This document shows positions 735-9,382 of a stretch of DNA of 64,000 bases, in pieces. Position 1 is the stretch's first letter; every line of letters begins with the position of its first letter. The stretch spans positions 1,379,819-1,443,818 of the forward strand of contig NZ_FO538765.1 of the NCBI RefSeq assembly GCF_000968135.1, in the 5' to 3' direction. The notes below the pieces were generated by a model, which searched no databases, was not told the DNA's origin, and worked only from the letters and a program-made list of their open reading frames with translations. Made by a program: the position numbers and the translations under genes. The DNA comes from Magnetospira sp. QH-2. GTDB taxonomy: Bacteria; Pseudomonadota; Alphaproteobacteria; Rhodospirillales; Magnetospiraceae.

Positions 735-2332
735 CCCGAATTATTCATGAGTCTCCCTGGCATCGCAACGGCCACGGGTCCTCGGCCGGGTTGACGGCCT
801 AATTTTGGTTTTGATTTTTCAGGCGTTTGGGGGTTGATCATCGGGGACTGAGGGGCGGCTCGCTGCCGCGGTTTTCACGGGCCCTGGGAGGCGACTTTCC
901 CGGCCATGGCGATCAGGGGTGTTTTGTATGGATATGCCGTCGGCAAGGCGACGGTTATGCGGGATTTGAGTTCCTCGATGCGTACGGCGATTTTGAGGAA
1001 AGACCGTCGCAGCGTCTCGAAGGTGGCGTTTTTCCAGATTGATTTCCGGGGCGCGGCGTTTCGCAGTTTAAGCAACAGCCAATAGGCTCCGGTATGGAGG
1101 AACAGTCGGAACTGGTTGGCCTCCCAGCGGTGACACGAGGTGCGGTCGGACTTGGTGTAGAGTTTGTGCTCCTTGATCATGTTCTCCATTTTGCCCCGCG
1201 CGCAGTAGACCTTTTCATAGAGGGTTTTGGCCCGGCCTGCCAGATTGGTGACGATGAAACGGATGTCGGAACCTTTTGCGGTGGCCTCGACCCGGGCGAT
1301 AACGGTTCGTTCCCGCTTCCAGCTCTTGGCCGCGTAGGCCGTTTGAAAGAACCGGCGTATCTTTTCCTTGCCTGATGTTGCCCGGCGCACGGCCACGTCC
1401 TCGCCCCAGGGTTGGCCGATTTCCTTGAGCCGCCCATTGGAGGACAGGCCGAAGATATAACCGCAGCCTCGGCTTTCCAGCCAGTCCATGACCTCGGGCG
1501 TGCCGTAATGGCCGTCCCCGCGCACGGTGATATGAACCCGGGGCCAGTTGTTCAGGATGCGGGTAACGACATGGCGCAAGACCGTCGCGGCCTCCGCCCC
1601 GAAGCCGCTTGCCGGGCCGCAACAGGGACAGGATCGGCTTTCCGGTGGCGGCGTCATAGATATGGATCGGCTGGAAGCAGTAATCATCGTAATGGCTGTT
1701 GAACAAGGCCAACTGTTGGCCGCCGTGAACCGCATCGCCGGTGTCGTCGATGTCGAGCGTGATGTGTTCGGGAACGCGGGCGAAGTTTCGCAAAACAGAT
1801 CGATCATCGACAAACCCATGCGGGCCAGTTGCCGCCAGGTCGGCGCGTTCTCCAACCGCGACAGGGTCGGCTGGCTCATCAAGTCCCGGCCCGTCTCCGA
1901 CAGCCGCCCGCAGGCCAGCTTGAAGGCCGGATCGACGCGCAGGGCGTCCAGATCGTCGCAATCCTCATAGCCGCAGGCAATGGCGAACATCCGCGCCCGG
2001 ATCATATCGTCGAAACCATGGATCACACTCCCCGGATCGCGGGTGTCGGGAAGATGCGAGGCCAAAAGATCGGCCAAACCGAGGTCACGTTCGATCTCGC
2101 GCAGAACCAGAACGCCGCCGTCGGATGACAAACGGCCGCCGTCGAAACGGGCGTGGATTTCCTTGCCGCCGACGGGTGACAAACCGGGCAGATATGGGCT
2201 AAATTCCTTCATGGCGACCGTAGGTGAAAATGGTGTCGTGGTTTTGGCTTGGACACCATAAACTCTACGATAATTCAACCATTTAAGCTACGTTCGCCAC
2301 CCTTTTCGGCCACGGATCGTGAATAATTCGGG
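735..2332 (-). mobile_element. IS1380-family insertion sequence with terminal repeats and CTAG target duplication
   Basis: The element is 1598 bp. The ends carry a perfect 13-bp inverted repeat, CCCGAATTATTCA at 735-747 and its complement at 2320-2332. A direct CTAG lies immediately outside each end (731-734 and 2333-2336), which reads as a 4-bp target duplication. Size, end sequence and transposase fit the IS1380 family. The element sits exactly at the terminal CTAG of a palindromic intergenic repeat, another copy of which is intact near 30.8 kb. Confidence 0.88.
875..2278 (-). pseudogene. IS1380-family transposase, probably inactivated by two compensating frameshifts
   Basis: The N-terminal part (RFDGGRLSSDGGVLVLREIE, ACGYEDCDDLDALR) and C-terminal part (VRGDGHYGTPEVMDWLE, YCARGKMENMIKEHK) are typical of IS1380 transposases. 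Between about 1790 and 1600 the long reading frame encodes unrelated Ser/Thr/Pro-rich sequence. The expected family core (HITLDIDDTGDAVHGGQQ, then LFNSHYDDYC and LLRPGK) lies in another frame on the same strand. This is explained by one missing base near 1789 (after DLFC) and one extra base near 1600-1612 (after LRPGKR). The first catalytic Asp (LDIDDT) is lost from the translated 467-residue product. Sequencing error at both sites, or programmed frameshifting, cannot be excluded. Confidence 0.75.
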
Positions 2333-2439
2333 CTAGATCACGTCGTGTTTGATCGGATTCGATCAAACATGAAAAACGTGATCGATTCCAATAAGGTCGC
2401 GCGTGTCTAGCGGGTCCGATTGGACCCGACACGCGCTAG
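2333..2439. repeat. Palindromic intergenic repeat, copy a (next to mscS)
   Basis: Three nested palindromes are visible. ATCACGT/ACGTGAT (2337-2343 with 2376-2382) encloses a 10-bp stem TGTTTGATCG/CGATCAAACA (2346-2369). Beyond it, GCGCGTGTC..GGGTCC pairs with GGACCC..GACACGCGC (2399-2436). The block ends in GCTAG, whose CTA is the complement of the TAG stop codon of mscS. The linker CCAATAAGGTCGCGCGTGT recurs in copy b. It could act as a transcription terminator for mscS. The IS1380 element has inserted into its CTAG end. Confidence 0.8.
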
Positions 2440-3284
2440 TCCGGCTGGACCATATGCACGACCCGCTGCGGGAACGGAATATCGATGCCCTCGGCGTCGA
2501 GCTTTTCCTTGAATGCCTTGGTCAGGTCGAACTTGACGCCCCAGTAGTCGCTGGACCGGACCCAGACCCGCACGGTGATATCTACCGAACTATCCCCCAG
2601 GTTGGAGACCACTACTTGGTGAGCGGGATCTTTCAAGGAGCGGGAATCGGCGGTGATGACGCTTTCGATGGCGGATATGGCCTGATCCATGTTGGCGCCA
2701 TAGCCAATGCCGACGAGAAAATCCACCCGGCGGGTGTTGTGGTAGCTGTAATTGGTCACCGAGCCGCCCCAGATTTGCCCGTTGGGCATAACGATATGGA
2801 CGTTGTCCGGGGTCGCCAGATCGGTGGTAAACAAATTCAGCGCCTTGACCGTTCCGGCATGGCCGCCGGCGTCGATGTAGTCGCCGACCTTGAACGGGCG
2901 GAAGATCAACAGCATGACGCCCGCCGCCACGTTGGACAGGGTCCCCTGCAACGCCAGGCCGATGGCTAGGCCGACCGCACCCAAGGCCGCGATGATCGAG
3001 GCGGTCTGTATGCCGAACTGACCGAGGACGGCGACGAGCGTGAACGTCAGCACCAGATACTTGACGATGCTGGAGAAGAAGCCGCGCAAGGTGCTGTCGA
3101 AACGCTCGAACTTGCTCAGGCCCTTGTTGACCGCGCCCCGGGCCCAACCGGAGACGATCCAGCCGATAATGAGAATGCCAATGGCGCCAATCACGTCGAG
3201 CCCGTAGGAAGTCACCATGGTGACAACTTCCTCGATCACGGCCTGGATGGTTTCCTGCATTTGTTCCATATCCATGTTATCCAT
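2436..3284 (-). CDS. mscS: MscS-family small-conductance mechanosensitive channel
   Basis: The product is an inner-membrane pressure-release channel of 282 residues, close to E. coli MscS in size. Three N-terminal membrane helices are visible. The third is the Gly/Ala-rich pore helix (AALGAVGLAIGLALQGTLSNVAAG) followed by the conserved FRPFKVGDYI start of the cytoplasmic beta domain. VMPNGQIWGGSVTNYS and the C-terminal IPFPQRVVHM are also family hallmarks. I chose the ATG at 3284 because it has AAGGAGAA upstream; an upstream ATG at 3311 lacks this. The TAG stop lies inside the palindromic repeat at 2333-2439. Confidence 0.93.
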   Translation of the reverse strand: MDNMDMEQMQETIQAVIEEVVTMVTSYGLDVIGAIGILIIGWIVSGWARGAVNKGLSKFERFDSTLRGFFSSIVKYLVLTFTLVAVLGQFGIQTASIIAALGAVGLAIGLALQGTLSNVAAGVMLLIFRPFKVGDYIDAGGHAGTVKALNLFTTDLATPDNVHIVMPNGQIWGGSVTNYSYHNTRRVDFLVGIGYGANMDQAISAIESVITADSRSLKDPAHQVVVSNLGDSSVDITVRVWVRSSDYWGVKFDLTKAFKEKLDAEGIDIPFPQRVVHMVQPD

Positions 3285-3371
3285 GGGGCATTCTCCTTGT
3301 TGGCATGACAATAGGCGCCGAAAGACAGGGTTGTAGCGGTCTTCAAGTCGTTTGGCTGGCGGAAAATAACG

Positions 3372-5615
3372 TTATTTTGTCGTCATCACCCAAACACCGT
3401 TCCATTCCCCTGCTGGGGGGGCTTCCTTGAGGTGTTCGCAGCGCTCAATATACATTTTGGAGCAGGCATCATTGGGATTGGCTTTCAGGGCCTCGTTGAA
3501 CTTGGTGATCGCCCGGTCCCATTCCGCGGCGCGGAAATGGTTGATGCCTTCTTGGAAGTGCCCCATCACATCCATCATGTTGGGGAACTCGTTGTCTTTG
3601 TAATAATCCAATACTTCAAAAACGGGCACCGGTTGGGTCTTGCCCTTGACCACCAACAAATCCACCTCGCGCATGCGGTAGGTGCCACGCAGGGCGGACC
3701 GGGTATTCTCGCTGATCAGGATATGGGCGCCGTACTGTTTGCAGGCGGCTTCCAGCCGCGAGGCCAGATTCACGCCGTCGCCAATGACCGTGTAGTCCAT
3801 GCGCTTGGGCGAGCCGATGTTGCCGGATACGACCACGTCCGTATTGATACCGACCCGCATGCCCACTTCCGGCTGTCCATGAGCCCGTCTGTTGGCATTC
3901 CAATCCCCCAACTGGGATTGCATGGCGATGCCGGTGCGCAGGGCACGGTCTTCGTCATCGTCATGGGGCAGCGGAATGCCGAACTCGGCCATGATGGCAT
4001 CGCCGATATACTTGTCGAGCATGCCACCTTCCTGAGAGACACATTCCACCATGATGGTGAAATACTCATTGAGCAGCGACACCGTGGCTTGCGGGCCCAG
4101 TTCCTCGGACAGGGTGGTGAAGCTCTTGATGTCGGTAAACAGCATGGTGGCCTTGGAATTCTGGCCACCCAACAGGTCTTCGCCGCTTTCCAATAGCTTG
4201 TCGGCGAGACCCGGGTCCATGTAGCGGGACATGGTGGATTTGACCCGCTTTTCGGCGGAAATGTCTTCGAGCATGATCAGCGTGCCCAGGGCCTTGTTCT
4301 CGCCGGTGACCAGGGGCAGGGCGGTGAAATTGGTCGAGACCTTCTGGCCGCGCCATTCCATTTCCGCGTCCATGGAGATATCGGTTTCCTGCGTCTCGCT
4401 GACCCGTTCGACCTTTTCCATGATCCAGCGGTTGGGGCCGGTGAAAATCTCCGGGCCCTTGAAGCCGATGATCTCCTCGGCCCGGTGCTTGAGAATACGC
4501 AGACCGGCGGCGTTACAGGTGACGATGCCGCCATTTTCGTCCAGGGTCAAAACACCGTTGGACATGGATTGCAGCATGCTCTCGTTATAGTTCTTGATGC
4601 TTTGCACATCATCAAAGAGCTTGGCGTTTTCCAAGGCGATGGCGACTTGAGAGTTAAAGGCCTTGAGCCTTTGTTCGTCTTCCTCGGTGAAGGGACCGCC
4701 GCGTTTGTTCAGCACCTGTGTCACACCAATGTTCTTGCCGCGCTTGTTCATCACCGGCACGCAGAGAATGGAGCGGGTGAAAAAGCCGGTTTTCTTGTCG
4801 AAGGCCGGGTTGAAGCGCAGGTCCGCATAGGCGTGCGGAATATTGACTGATTCCTGAGAAGTGAAGACCGCACCGGCAATGCCCAGGTGATTGGGCAGGC
4901 GGATTTCGCCCACATCGTCGCCCTGGGCCACGCGGGAAAACAGTTCGTTGGTCTTGTCGTCGTTGAGGAACAAGGTCGAGCGTTCGGCATTGAGCATGGA
5001 GGTCGCTTCGGACATGACCTTCTGCAACAGCACGTTCAAATCGATTTCGGCGGTCAGTTCGGCCACCACATCAAGAAATTCTCGCTCTTGTTCACGGGCC
5101 TTTTGGACCCGTTCGATCGTTTGGGCATTGCGCAGGGCGATGGCTACCTGCTGCATCATGGCTTCGAGGATTTCCTGGTCCAGCTTGCTGAACTTGCCTT
5201 TGCGTTTGTTGAGCACCTGAGCGACGCCGATGACGTGGCCTTTCACCGTGCGGATGGGCGCGGCCATGATGGAGCGGGTGACGAACCCGGTTTGTTCGTC
5301 GACCGCCGAATTAAACCGTTCGTCGGCCTGGGCATCATCGACCACCAGCGGCTGCTTCATGGTGAAGACACTGCCCGCGATGCCTGAGTTATTGAGGATG
5401 CGGATTTCCCGTCGCATGGACCCTTGGGCGACCCGGGCGATCAGCTCGCTGGTTTCTTCGTCATTGAGGAAAATGGTGCCGCGTTCGGCTTCCAGGTGCA
5501 AGGTGGTCACATCGACCAATTGCTCCAATACCTCGTCGAGAGTTTCCACCACGGAAACCCGCCGCAGGATATCCTCCAGGGCCTTCGCTTTTCGCGTATC
5601 TTTGCTAACTGGCAC
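3372..5615 (-). CDS. GAF-GAF-PAS class III adenylate/guanylate cyclase
   Basis: A soluble nucleotide cyclase of 747 residues. Two GAF domains (about 15-170 and 190-345) share internal repeats such as TGFVTRSIMAAPI and TGFFTRSILCVPV. A PAS domain follows (about 350-460), then the catalytic domain (about 485-650). The two metal-binding Asp residues are visible, D495 in LFTDIKSFT and D539 in KYIGDAIMAEFG. The tail (about 670-730) resembles a TPR pair. It probably makes cAMP from ATP in response to a ligand or redox signal sensed by the GAF domains; the substrate cannot be decided by eye. It lies 29 bases downstream of the coiled-coil gene and is probably co-transcribed with it. A protein with a cyclic-nucleotide-binding domain is at 36.1-37.9 kb. 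Confidence 0.92.
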   Translation of the reverse strand: MPVSKDTRKAKALEDILRRVSVVETLDEVLEQLVDVTTLHLEAERGTIFLNDEETSELIARVAQGSMRREIRILNNSGIAGSVFTMKQPLVVDDAQADERFNSAVDEQTGFVTRSIMAAPIRTVKGHVIGVAQVLNKRKGKFSKLDQEILEAMMQQVAIALRNAQTIERVQKAREQEREFLDVVAELTAEIDLNVLLQKVMSEATSMLNAERSTLFLNDDKTNELFSRVAQGDDVGEIRLPNHLGIAGAVFTSQESVNIPHAYADLRFNPAFDKKTGFFTRSILCVPVMNKRGKNIGVTQVLNKRGGPFTEEDEQRLKAFNSQVAIALENAKLFDDVQSIKNYNESMLQSMSNGVLTLDENGGIVTCNAAGLRILKHRAEEIIGFKGPEIFTGPNRWIMEKVERVSETQETDISMDAEMEWRGQKVSTNFTALPLVTGENKALGTLIMLEDISAEKRVKSTMSRYMDPGLADKLLESGEDLLGGQNSKATMLFTDIKSFTTLSEELGPQATVSLLNEYFTIMVECVSQEGGMLDKYIGDAIMAEFGIPLPHDDDEDRALRTGIAMQSQLGDWNANRRAHGQPEVGMRVGINTDVVVSGNIGSPKRMDYTVIGDGVNLASRLEAACKQYGAHILISENTRSALRGTYRMREVDLLVVKGKTQPVPVFEVLDYYKDNEFPNMMDVMGHFQEGINHFRAAEWDRAITKFNEALKANPNDACSKMYIERCEHLKEAPPAGEWNGVWVMTTK

Positions 5616-5644
5616 CGTTCAACCCTTCCCTCAATGATCCGGCC

Positions 5645-6559
5645 TTACGCATCCGCTGTGCCGCGTTCGGCTGTGACGGCATCCAGTCGGTCCCTCAGGA
5701 CGCCAATGGTTTCCTTTAGATGCCGCTGTTCATCTTGTGCGATCCGCGCGTCCGATTGCAACTTTTCATGCTGACGATTTTTCTGTTCTTCCAATTCATC
5801 GCGCAGAAAAGAGGCCATATCCTTAAGCTGTTGGATCTCCCCTTGGGCGGCAGCGGTGATTTCCCGACCGATCTGCGTCTTTTCGTCTTCCAACTGCTCC
5901 ATCTGGTCGCGCAGAGCCTGGATAGTTTCGTTGAGTCGACCAATCTCGCCCTGGGCCTCTGCGTGGGCGGCGGCGACGGCTCGATCCTTGTCGGCGGATT
6001 CCTCTTCCAATTGATCGCGCAGGGCGGCCACGAGTTGATTGAGCATGGAGATCTCGTTGGCGCTCAATTCGCGGGTAGACTGGACCGCCTTGTCGCATTC
6101 CTCGGCCATGTTCTGGATACGATGGCGTAAGGCCGCCACGGTATCGCGCAGTTGGGTGATTTCGCCTCGAGACTCGGTAATCGCGACCTCAACGGCCTTT
6201 TCCCGTGATGTATCGGCTTTCTCAAGCAGGACTCGCAACTCGGCGATGGTTTCCCGGTGGCGCTCATTTTCCGACTGCAAATTCGTCGCCACGGCCCGGA
6301 CCGCCGATTCTTTATCCAAGTCGGCGGATTCGAGGCGTTCCCGCAATGATGAGATCGAATCCTTGAGGGTCGTCGTTTCCTTATTGAATTCCGACGTGGC
6401 GTTCTCGAGGGCCTCTTGGGTATGAAGATTGGCCAAATCCAACTCGTCGCGCATGACGGCAATGGTCTCGCGAAGATAGCGATTCTCATCGGCCACGGAC
6501 CCGCCAGCATTGGCGGTCGCGCGTTTGGTGGATTTCTTTTTCGGTGTTTCGTCCGTCAT
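5645..6559 (-). CDS. Coiled-coil protein of eight exact 36-residue repeats
   Basis: The 304-residue protein has no membrane segment. After a basic, low-complexity N-terminus (1-22) it is almost wholly alpha-helical and charged. A motif of the form [VSEAF][LM]R[DEVH]x[LIM] recurs at residues 35, 71, 107, 143, 179, 215, 251 and 287, exactly 36 residues apart, usually preceded by ETI or DTV. Thirty-six is not a heptad multiple but fits two hendecads plus two heptads. It is the first gene of a probable two-gene unit with the cyclase, so a scaffold or partner role is possible but inferred. It has GGGGAA upstream of its ATG and is divergent from clpS. Confidence 0.75.
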   Translation of the reverse strand: MTDETPKKKSTKRATANAGGSVADENRYLRETIAVMRDELDLANLHTQEALENATSEFNKETTTLKDSISSLRERLESADLDKESAVRAVATNLQSENERHRETIAELRVLLEKADTSREKAVEVAITESRGEITQLRDTVAALRHRIQNMAEECDKAVQSTRELSANEISMLNQLVAALRDQLEEESADKDRAVAAAHAEAQGEIGRLNETIQALRDQMEQLEDEKTQIGREITAAAQGEIQQLKDMASFLRDELEEQKNRQHEKLQSDARIAQDEQRHLKETIGVLRDRLDAVTAERGTADA

Positions 6560-6729: not shown

Positions 6730-7065
6730 ATGAGCGATCACGACCATAACGACGATGATGACCAACAGGGGGGAGATCCCGGCCTGGCGGTCAAGGCTCG
6801 CCCCAAGACCAAAAAGCCATCCATGTACAAGGTGTTGATGCTCAACGATGATTACACGCCGATGGAGTTCGTCGTGCATGTGCTGGAGCGCTTCTTCAAC
6901 AAAAATCAGGATGAAGCGACTCGAATCATGCTCCATGTGCACCAGCGGGGCGTTGGGATCTGTGGCGTCTTCACCTATGAAGTGGCCGAAGCCAAGGCCA
7001 CCCAGGTAATGGATCTGGCCCGCGAACATCAGCACCCGCTCCAATGCACCATTGAAAAGGACTGA
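6730..7065 (+). CDS. clpS: ClpS adaptor of the ClpAP protease
   Basis: ClpS delivers N-degron substrates to ClpA. The 111-residue protein has an acidic, disordered N-terminus (residues 1-20, rich in Asp and His) and the conserved core: [20 protein letters not shown] with the NDD/TPMEFV substrate pocket, then [15 protein letters not shown] and [11 protein letters not shown], which contact ClpA. The gene ends 7 bases before clpA, the usual operon arrangement in proteobacteria. Confidence 0.96.
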
Positions 7066-7072
7066 CAGGCCC

Positions 7073-9382
7073 ATGCTTTCCCGCAACCTGGAACAGACTC
7101 TCCATCGCGCCCTGGCCCTGGCCGGCGAACGGCTGCACGAACTGGTGACCCTGGAACACTTGCTGTTGGCGCTGGTCGACGACCCGGACGCCACGGCGGT
7201 GATGCGGGCCTGCGGTGTCGATCCTGAGAATCTGCGGAGCGATCTGACCACCTTTATCGATGAAGAGCTGGAAAGCCTGATTACCGGTGTGGCCGGAGAG
7301 GACGCCAAGCCCACCGCCGGTTTCCAACGGGTCGTGCAGCGCGCAGCCATCCATGTGCAATCCTCCGGGCGCGAGGAAGTCACCGGGGCCAATGTGTTGG
7401 TCGCCTTGTTCTCCGAACGCGAATCCCATGCGGTCTATTTCCTGCAATTGCATGAAATGTCCCGTTTTGACGCCGTCCAATATATTTCTCACGGTATCGC
7501 CAAGGTCCCCGGAGCCGCTGAACCCCGCCCAGTGCGCGGCGCCGACGAAGGGGAAGAGGGTGAAGAAGAGGCCGTGCGGCAGGGCAAGGAGGCGCTGGAT
7601 GCCTATTGCGTCAACCTCAACGAAAAGGCCGACGCGGGTAAGATCGATCCGCTGATCGGGCGCGAGGCGGAAATCGAGCGCACCATTCAAATTCTCTGTC
7701 GCCGCTCCAAGAATAACCCGCTTTATGTGGGCGATCCCGGTGTCGGCAAGACCGCCATCGCCGAAGGGTTGGCACGACGCATTACCGAGAAGAAAGTGCC
7801 CGACGTGCTGAACGACGCGATTATATTCGCCTTGGATATGGGATCGCTATTGGCCGGAACCCGCTACCGTGGCGACTTCGAAGAACGCCTGAAGGCGGTG
7901 ATGAAGGAACTGGAAGAAACCGAGGGCGCCATCTTGTTCATCGATGAAATCCATACGGTGATCGGCGCCGGAGCGACGTCGGGCGGCTCCATGGATGCCT
8001 CTAACATTCTCAAACCGTCGTTGGCGGCGGGGACCCTGCGCTGCATCGGGTCGACCACCTACAAGGAATTCCGCAATCACTTCGAAAAGGACCGGGCGCT
8101 GGTTCGCCGTTTCCAGAAGATCGACGTCAACGAGCCGTCGGTGGAAGACACCATTAAAATCCTGCGCGGCCTGAAGCCCTATTACGAAGAGCATCACAAG
8201 GTCCGATATACCGCCGAGTCCCTGCGCACGGCGGTGGAGCTCTCGACCAAGTATATCAGTGACCGTAAGCTGCCCGACAAGGCCATCGACGTGATTGATG
8301 AAGTCGGAGCCTCGCGCATGCTGCTGCCGGAGAGCAAGCGGCGGAAAACGGTGACGGTCCGCGACGTGGAAGAAATCGTCGCCAAGATCGCCCGCATACC
8401 GCCGAAGAGTGTCTCGCGCGATGATACCAAGGCCCTGAAGACCCTGGAACGGGACCTCAAGACCATGGTGTTCGGCCAGGACAAGGCCATCAGCGCCCTG
8501 GGATCGGCCATCAAGCTGGCCCGGGCCGGGCTACGCGAGCCGGAGAAGCCCATCGGCAGCTATTTGTTCAGCGGTCCCACCGGTGTCGGCAAGACCGAGG
8601 TGGCCCGCCAACTGTCCAAGACTCTGGGCATCGAATTGGTGCGCTTCGATATGTCGGAATACATGGAGCGCCATACGGTCTCGCGGCTGATCGGCGCGCC
8701 GCCGGGCTACGTGGGCTTCGACCAGGGCGGCCTGCTCACCGATGCGGTGGATCAGCACCCCCATGTGGTGCTGCTGCTCGACGAGATCGAGAAAGCCCAT
8801 CCGGATCTGTTCAATATCCTGTTGCAGGTCATGGACCATGGCAAACTGACAGACCACAACGGCAAATCGGTGGATTTCCGCAATGTCATCTTGATCATGA
8901 CCACCAATGCCGGAGCCGCCGATCTGGCCAAACCGGCCATGGGCTTTGGTCGCGAGGACCGGGTGGGCGAGGATCAAGAAGCCATCGAGAAGATGTTCAC
9001 CCCGGAATTTCGCAACCGGCTGGATGCCATTATTCCATTCGCCGCCCTGTCGCCCGAGGTGGTGGCCAAGGTGGTGGACAAGTTCATCATGGAACTGGAA
9101 GCCCAGTTGGATGACCGCAATGTGCTGATCGATCTGACCGAAGAGGCGCGGAATTGGCTGGCCAAGAAGGGCTTCGACCCGCTCTATGGGGCCCGCCCCC
9201 TGTCGCGGATCATTCAGGAGCATGTCAAGAAGCCGCTGGCCGAGGAGCTGTTGTTCGGCAAGCTGGCCAAGGGCGGCACGGTGGTGGTGTCGGTGGAGGG
9301 CAACAAGCTGGCTTTCAGCTACCCCGATTCACCGCAGCCCCCGGCCACCCGCGAGGACAAGGTCCCCGCGCTGGTCGAATAG
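7073..9382 (+). CDS. clpA: ClpA ATPase subunit of the ClpAP protease
   Basis: An AAA+ unfoldase of 769 residues that feeds substrates into ClpP. The N-terminal Clp repeats (MLSRNLEQTLHRAL.., about 1-145) bind ClpS. The first AAA module has GDPGVGKTA (about 220) and ILFIDEIHT. The second has GPTGVGKTE (about 501) and VVLLLDEIEKAH. The start at 7073 gives the family N-terminus; an upstream in-frame ATG inside clpS is unlikely. A bidirectional-looking terminator follows at 9415-9443. No clpP is in the window. Confidence 0.97.
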   Translation: MLSRNLEQTLHRALALAGERLHELVTLEHLLLALVDDPDATAVMRACGVDPENLRSDLTTFIDEELESLITGVAGEDAKPTAGFQRVVQRAAIHVQSSGREEVTGANVLVALFSERESHAVYFLQLHEMSRFDAVQYISHGIAKVPGAAEPRPVRGADEGEEGEEEAVRQGKEALDAYCVNLNEKADAGKIDPLIGREAEIERTIQILCRRSKNNPLYVGDPGVGKTAIAEGLARRITEKKVPDVLNDAIIFALDMGSLLAGTRYRGDFEERLKAVMKELEETEGAILFIDEIHTVIGAGATSGGSMDASNILKPSLAAGTLRCIGSTTYKEFRNHFEKDRALVRRFQKIDVNEPSVEDTIKILRGLKPYYEEHHKVRYTAESLRTAVELSTKYISDRKLPDKAIDVIDEVGASRMLLPESKRRKTVTVRDVEEIVAKIARIPPKSVSRDDTKALKTLERDLKTMVFGQDKAISALGSAIKLARAGLREPEKPIGSYLFSGPTGVGKTEVARQLSKTLGIELVRFDMSEYMERHTVSRLIGAPPGYVGFDQGGLLTDAVDQHPHVVLLLDEIEKAHPDLFNILLQVMDHGKLTDHNGKSVDFRNVILIMTTNAGAADLAKPAMGFGREDRVGEDQEAIEKMFTPEFRNRLDAIIPFAALSPEVVAKVVDKFIMELEAQLDDRNVLIDLTEEARNWLAKKGFDPLYGARPLSRIIQEHVKKPLAEELLFGKLAKGGTVVVSVEGNKLAFSYPDSPQPPATREDKVPALVE

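Follow-up and report, generated by a model that had tools for sequence, protein, structure and literature searches.

In Magnetospira sp. QH-2, a gene encoding a predicted helical rod, built on motifs that recur at an exact interval of 36 residues, lies immediately upstream of a gene for a class III adenylate cyclase, and computational analysis of related genomes finds this rod exclusively paired with one subfamily of such cyclases. The most likely use of the rod, to which we give about an even chance, is that of a multivalent scaffold docking cyclases at evenly spaced motifs that face the same side. Both genes are carried on the minus strand of the window, which is the whole stretch of 64,000 nucleotides that was analysed.

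The rod gene (5645..6559, minus strand) encodes 304 amino acids, arranged as a leader (residues 1-24), eight motifs and seven linkers with a period of 36, and an 11-residue tail. The 17-residue motifs start at residues 25, 61, 97, 133, 169, 205, 241 and 277, all seven spacings being 36 without any indel. On the minus strand they correspond to motif 1 (6437..6487, residues 25-41, ENRYLRETIAVMRDELD, 33.5 bits), motif 2 (6329..6379, ETTTLKDSISSLRERLE, 25.0 bits), motif 3 (6221..6271, ENERHRETIAELRVLLE, 16.5 bits), motif 4 (6113..6163, EITQLRDTVAALRHRIQ, 32.9 bits), motif 5 (6005..6055, EISMLNQLVAALRDQLE, 22.2 bits), motif 6 (5897..5947, EIGRLNETIQALRDQME, 34.7 bits), motif 7 (5789..5839, EIQQLKDMASFLRDELE, 37.6 bits) and motif 8, a terminal half-unit (5681..5731, EQRHLKETIGVLRDRLD, 34.4 bits). 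These scores were obtained with a profile made from homologues only, the window's own repeats being left out; elsewhere in the protein no score exceeds -4.5 bits, and the top score in 300 shuffles was 13.0 bits. BLOSUM autocorrelation of the protein gives z=13.2 against shuffles at lag 36, with harmonics at lags 72, 108 and 144 (z=11.3, 10.4 and 8.4, respectively), while at lags 35 and 37 identity does not rise above background. Lag 36 is the top lag in all 43 rod ORFs among the 771 ORFs of at least 140 amino acids from 80 related loci, whereas the median best z of the non-rod ORFs is 2.4; those non-rod ORFs that score high at lag 36 are all located at the rod gene's place, a position consistent with other frames of that gene. 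A previous sequence-only reading had described eight exact 36-residue repeats without indels, with a core at residues 35, 71 and so on, which is the x-L-R part of the motifs starting at 25, 61 and so on. The repeats and their period are confirmed, but "exact" holds for the spacing and not for the sequence, because the repeats are just 14-42% identical in pairwise comparisons; no tandem repeat was found at the DNA level in the window's rod gene.

Homologues of the rod are present in Alpha-, Beta-, Gamma- and Deltaproteobacteria, Scalindua, Nitrospirota and Elusimicrobiota. They were found by search in 37 of 60 relatives, and a 38th (G024) was read from the DNA beside its cyclase. In every protein extracted from these relatives the strongest period is lag 36 or its double, and the 192 units placed in them give 154 neighbouring spacings, of which 153 are 36 and the remaining one is 72. 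An initial contig scan with the rod itself as query gave no match; the wider scan was seeded instead with the cyclase alignment, which does not presuppose the rod, and returned 80 named loci. A motif scan of 77 of these loci, in which the spacing was not imposed, gave 36 in 314 of 314 spacings, a set that overlaps in loci with the 154 spacings of the relatives and is not independent of it. Where 72 or 108 appears, a whole multiple of the unit length, the intervening motifs are too weak to score, and the sole irregular spacing found is 38, in a fused protein (L165) with a proline-containing linker. The absence of indels despite strongly diverged repeats supports the earlier suggestion that the spacing is under selection, and the test on homologues for irregular spacing did not refute it. 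The rod matches no Pfam or NCBIfam family above the curated cut-off, and against PDB sequences there is no convincing match (the best, to SAS-6, has E=0.014).

The motif has the consensus EIxQLKxT[IV]xALRDELE and occurs once per 36 residues. The core positions of the unit are 2-5-9-12-16-19-23-27-30-34, which supports the 7+7+11+11 layout that had been proposed, with place 23 polar because it is mostly Lys; in the linker, the hendecad stretch is Ala-rich at its core positions 30 and 34. Conservation per position is 2.06 bits in the motif versus 1.19 bits in the linker, R13 is retained in 96% of units, and specific polar residues are conserved beyond the hydrophobic seam. As a rule, the arrays start and finish with a motif. 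The helical moment of the mean hydrophobicity profile peaks at 100 degrees per residue, that is 3.60 residues per turn; therefore 36 residues make ten turns and the motifs fall on one side, so that successive motifs would face the same way at about 5.4 nm from each other (0.15 nm per residue). For the window's rod, AlphaFold2 predicts one unbroken helix over residues 21-303 (283 residues, mean pLDDT 86), with a full length of about 42 nm; the model is a monomer, the oligomeric state being beyond its reach. There are 9 prolines among the 12613 residues of the 77 arrays, and the rod has a mean Kyte-Doolittle value of -0.82 and a net charge of about -2 per unit. An alpha-solenoid (TPR/PPR-like) is excluded by the continuous helix and the near absence of proline, and a membrane-binding amphipathic helix is unlikely in view of the hydrophobicity and the charge.

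In tropomyosin, too, binding sites are evenly spaced along a continuous helix, and the rod with its motifs may be likened to it in architecture, with a different period. The signalling (S-) helix, a parallel coiled-coil element of cyclase and kinase signalling proteins (PMC1592074), differs in being a stretch of about 40 residues between domains with an ERT signature, whereas the rod is a separate tandem array; in a comparison of consensus sequences only, the rod unit does not match that signature (K/R at 6, variable at 7, T at 8; PMC1592074).

The rod gene is found immediately upstream of the cyclase gene, on the same strand, in all 77 testable loci of the 80; in the other three the contig edge lies no more than 336 bases ahead of the cyclase, and no rod is seen there. 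Rod and cyclase occur together in 38 of the 60 relatives, and the other 22 contain neither. In a phylum sample of 397 genomes the rod profile matches 19, all of them with the cyclase and none with the rod alone, and two cyclase-only genomes carry distant relatives (45% and 40% identity). In a class sample of 241 genomes, some of which are also in the phylum sample, the rod occurs in 20, the cyclase in 20 of these 20, and the rod alone in none. Three seeming exceptions in the class sample are due to assembly breaks: G652, whose cyclase, the only close one without a rod, is cut at a contig end; G572, where rod and cyclase are both at contig ends; and G570, where the contig with the rod bears the N-terminal part of the cyclase. 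Fisher p values for co-occurrence range from 7e-17 to 8e-33 and overstate the evidence, because shared ancestry is ignored. Beside the more distant GAF-GAF-PAS cyclases of these samples (36-49% identity) the rod profile matches nothing, so the rod goes with a single cyclase subfamily. A natural fusion in one genome (L165:2270-4936) consists of rod motifs followed by a complete cyclase; strict geometry is dispensable in this protein, because it has three motifs only, one spacing of 38 and prolines in the second linker. The pairing with a GAF-GAF-PAS cyclase noted in the earlier reading is thus supported, and the search for rods that lack it, run as a test of that claim, did not refute it in any of the three genome sets. 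Paralogous coils with 36-residue units of this kind are encoded at L046:7692-8591(-) and L047:7025-7960(+), where such a cyclase is absent from the neighbourhood; in these proteins the units follow an N-terminal domain, some 130 residues long, that has no Pfam match, and the host genomes (G016 and G037) also contain the rod-cyclase pair.

The partner gene (3372..5615, minus strand) encodes a 747-residue protein with GAF-GAF-PAS-class III adenylate cyclase-TPR-like organisation according to Pfam. It is probably co-transcribed with the rod gene, as suggested by the common strand, by the gap of only 29 bases (5616..5644, minus strand) between the rod stop and the GTG start of the cyclase, where a purine-rich Shine-Dalgarno-like sequence, GAGGGAAGGG, is present, and by the lack of a terminator-like site on the minus strand between both genes. 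The catalytic domain (3633..4157, minus strand; PF00211, E=4.2e-27) contains residues D495, K535, D539, T609, N616 and R620, which are invariant in 32 of 32 homologues and which we take to fulfil the catalytic metal, base and transition-state roles, including the K/T pair of the adenine type. GAF2 (4626..5039, minus strand) has the complete NKFDE signature (N303, K304, F309, D313 and E314), with K replaced by R in 2 of 32 homologues, and GAF1 is without the final E. The structure model of the cyclase is of moderate confidence (mean pLDDT 76), and its best solved match, both by sequence (E=1.1e-58) and by fold, is the tandem GAF of CyaB2 (1ykd). The closest named cyclase in the 80 loci, from a Magnetospira MAG, is 78% identical, and no plasmid relatives were found. 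The protein resembles CyaB1 and CyaB2 from Anabaena in the order of its Pfam domains (tandem GAF, then PAS, then the class III domain) and in the NKFDE motif of GAF2, but it has a dedicated partner gene with 36-residue repeats; this comparison covers the cyclase proteins only. In Anabaena CyaB2 the GAF domains bind cAMP, which raises cyclase activity (PMC4411481), and by analogy a similar activation, by the cAMP that it makes and through GAF2, is predicted for the cyclase of the window.

No third gene conserved beside the pair across all loci was found. A CHASE2-adenylate cyclase gene is near the pair in 18 of 80 loci (L081-L160), mostly in convergent orientation (e.g. L142:11920-14172), and in some of these loci ABC transporter and HlyD-like genes follow at a greater distance. 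In the window, clpS-clpA (6730-9382, plus strand) is divergent from the rod gene, an arrangement common, among the relatives examined, to two same-family loci only. The cyclase is followed on its own strand, after 60 bases, by a gene for an mscS-like channel (2436-3311, minus strand), which does not flank the pair in any other relative examined. Further on, a 467-residue transposase-like ORF (875-2278, minus strand) shares part of its length with a long ORF in an alternative frame (1215-1961) and is possibly a frameshifted insertion sequence.

The number of motifs varies from 3 to about 14 across homologues, and close relatives differ, with 6, 7 and 8 within one clade. This variation disfavours the idea, also raised in the sequence-only reading, that the protein is a ruler of total length. 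In a cyclase tree built with a quick method, two Scalindua sequences are placed among Alphaproteobacteria (support 95) and Nitrospirota is paired with Elusimicrobiota (support 100). These placements suggest transfer between phyla, misbinning of MAGs being a possible alternative.

Taken together, the data suggest a new scaffold on which a signalling enzyme is positioned at regular intervals; the literature searched contained no account of the pair, subscription journals being largely outside reach. The two genes would constitute a two-part signalling module, in which the first product would be a rigid, straight, soluble helical rod and the second an adenylate cyclase of the CyaB1/CyaB2 type, self-activated via GAF2. 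A cyclase protomer or dimer would dock at each motif, and the rod would hold several cyclases in a row, so that cAMP from one activates its neighbours. The count of assembled cyclases would then depend on the number of motifs, and the size of the docked partner would dictate the spacing. We infer in this way the physical binding of rod and cyclase, their clustering and their shared activation. A more ambitious version, a second-messenger array in which a length-tunable rod carries self-activating cyclases at 5.4 nm and cAMP is switched cooperatively and locally, is put forward only tentatively. As a counterpoint to docking, the motif could instead be conserved for packing between rods, and it is harder to imagine how docking would work with a rod attached to each cyclase, as in L165.

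Packing is the basis of a different explanation, somewhat unlikely in our opinion, in which rods assemble by themselves into a cytoskeletal filament or sheet, staggered by multiples of 36 residues, and the cyclase is a passenger. Myosin rods pack side by side in this staggered way through 28-residue repeats. The 36-residue periodicity of the rod's charge pattern agrees with such an arrangement, and a free repeat number with a fixed spacing suits it. The long rods FilP and Scy from Actinobacteria also mix heptads and hendecads, the latter with an Ala-rich core as in the linker described here (PMC9858780); they differ from the window's rod, which has a conserved polar motif in each unit and is tied to a cyclase, and in which no DivIVA-like N-terminal domain was matched with Pfam or NCBIfam. 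However, some rods have only about 110 amino acids and three motifs (L086, L101 and L108), and packing alone leaves the exclusive link to the cyclase and the fusion unexplained.

It is improbable that the rod serves the cyclase as a simple regulator or chaperone, a coiled-coil dimer in which the repeats are passive spacers, and the proposal that would then account for the frozen period, whole-unit duplication together with a continuous helix seam that punishes indels, seems equally doubtful. Duplication itself is supported, as the earlier reading proposed: one locus (L055) keeps 108-bp DNA repeats (5.2 copies, 83% match) from a recent event, which indicates that motif number changes by whole units, and unit identity is slightly higher within a protein (0.40) than between proteins (0.35). 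Part of the strictness of the spacing may thus be mutational, because duplication of a unit restores 36 by itself. Nevertheless, a seam would allow indels of 7, 11 and 18 residues, none of which appears in the 314 spacings, and the conservation extends to specific polar residues beyond the seam. Besides, the seven units of the window, in spite of their low identity, match those of L049 one-to-one and in order, so the repeat number has been stable in this family while the sequence diverged.

Tropomyosin spans actin subunits, and actin-like protofilaments repeat in the range of 5.4 nm. Binding of the rod to a further partner whose subunits repeat at about this distance (e.g. an actin-like filament), which would place the cyclase there, is very improbable: a variable number of motifs at constant intervals would fit a polymer track and 36 residues fall within that range, but no actin-like filament gene recurs in the neighbourhoods, and an exact fit to MreB-type repeats (5.1-5.2 nm) would take 34-35 residues.

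Its predicted straight course at 3.6 residues per turn makes the rod a natural tandem coiled coil usable for protein design, and the natural series of motif numbers is suited to asking whether clustering tunes a self-activating enzyme. The conservation over several phyla of a pair formed by a scaffold-like rod and one cyclase subfamily would bear on how bacteria confine cAMP signals.
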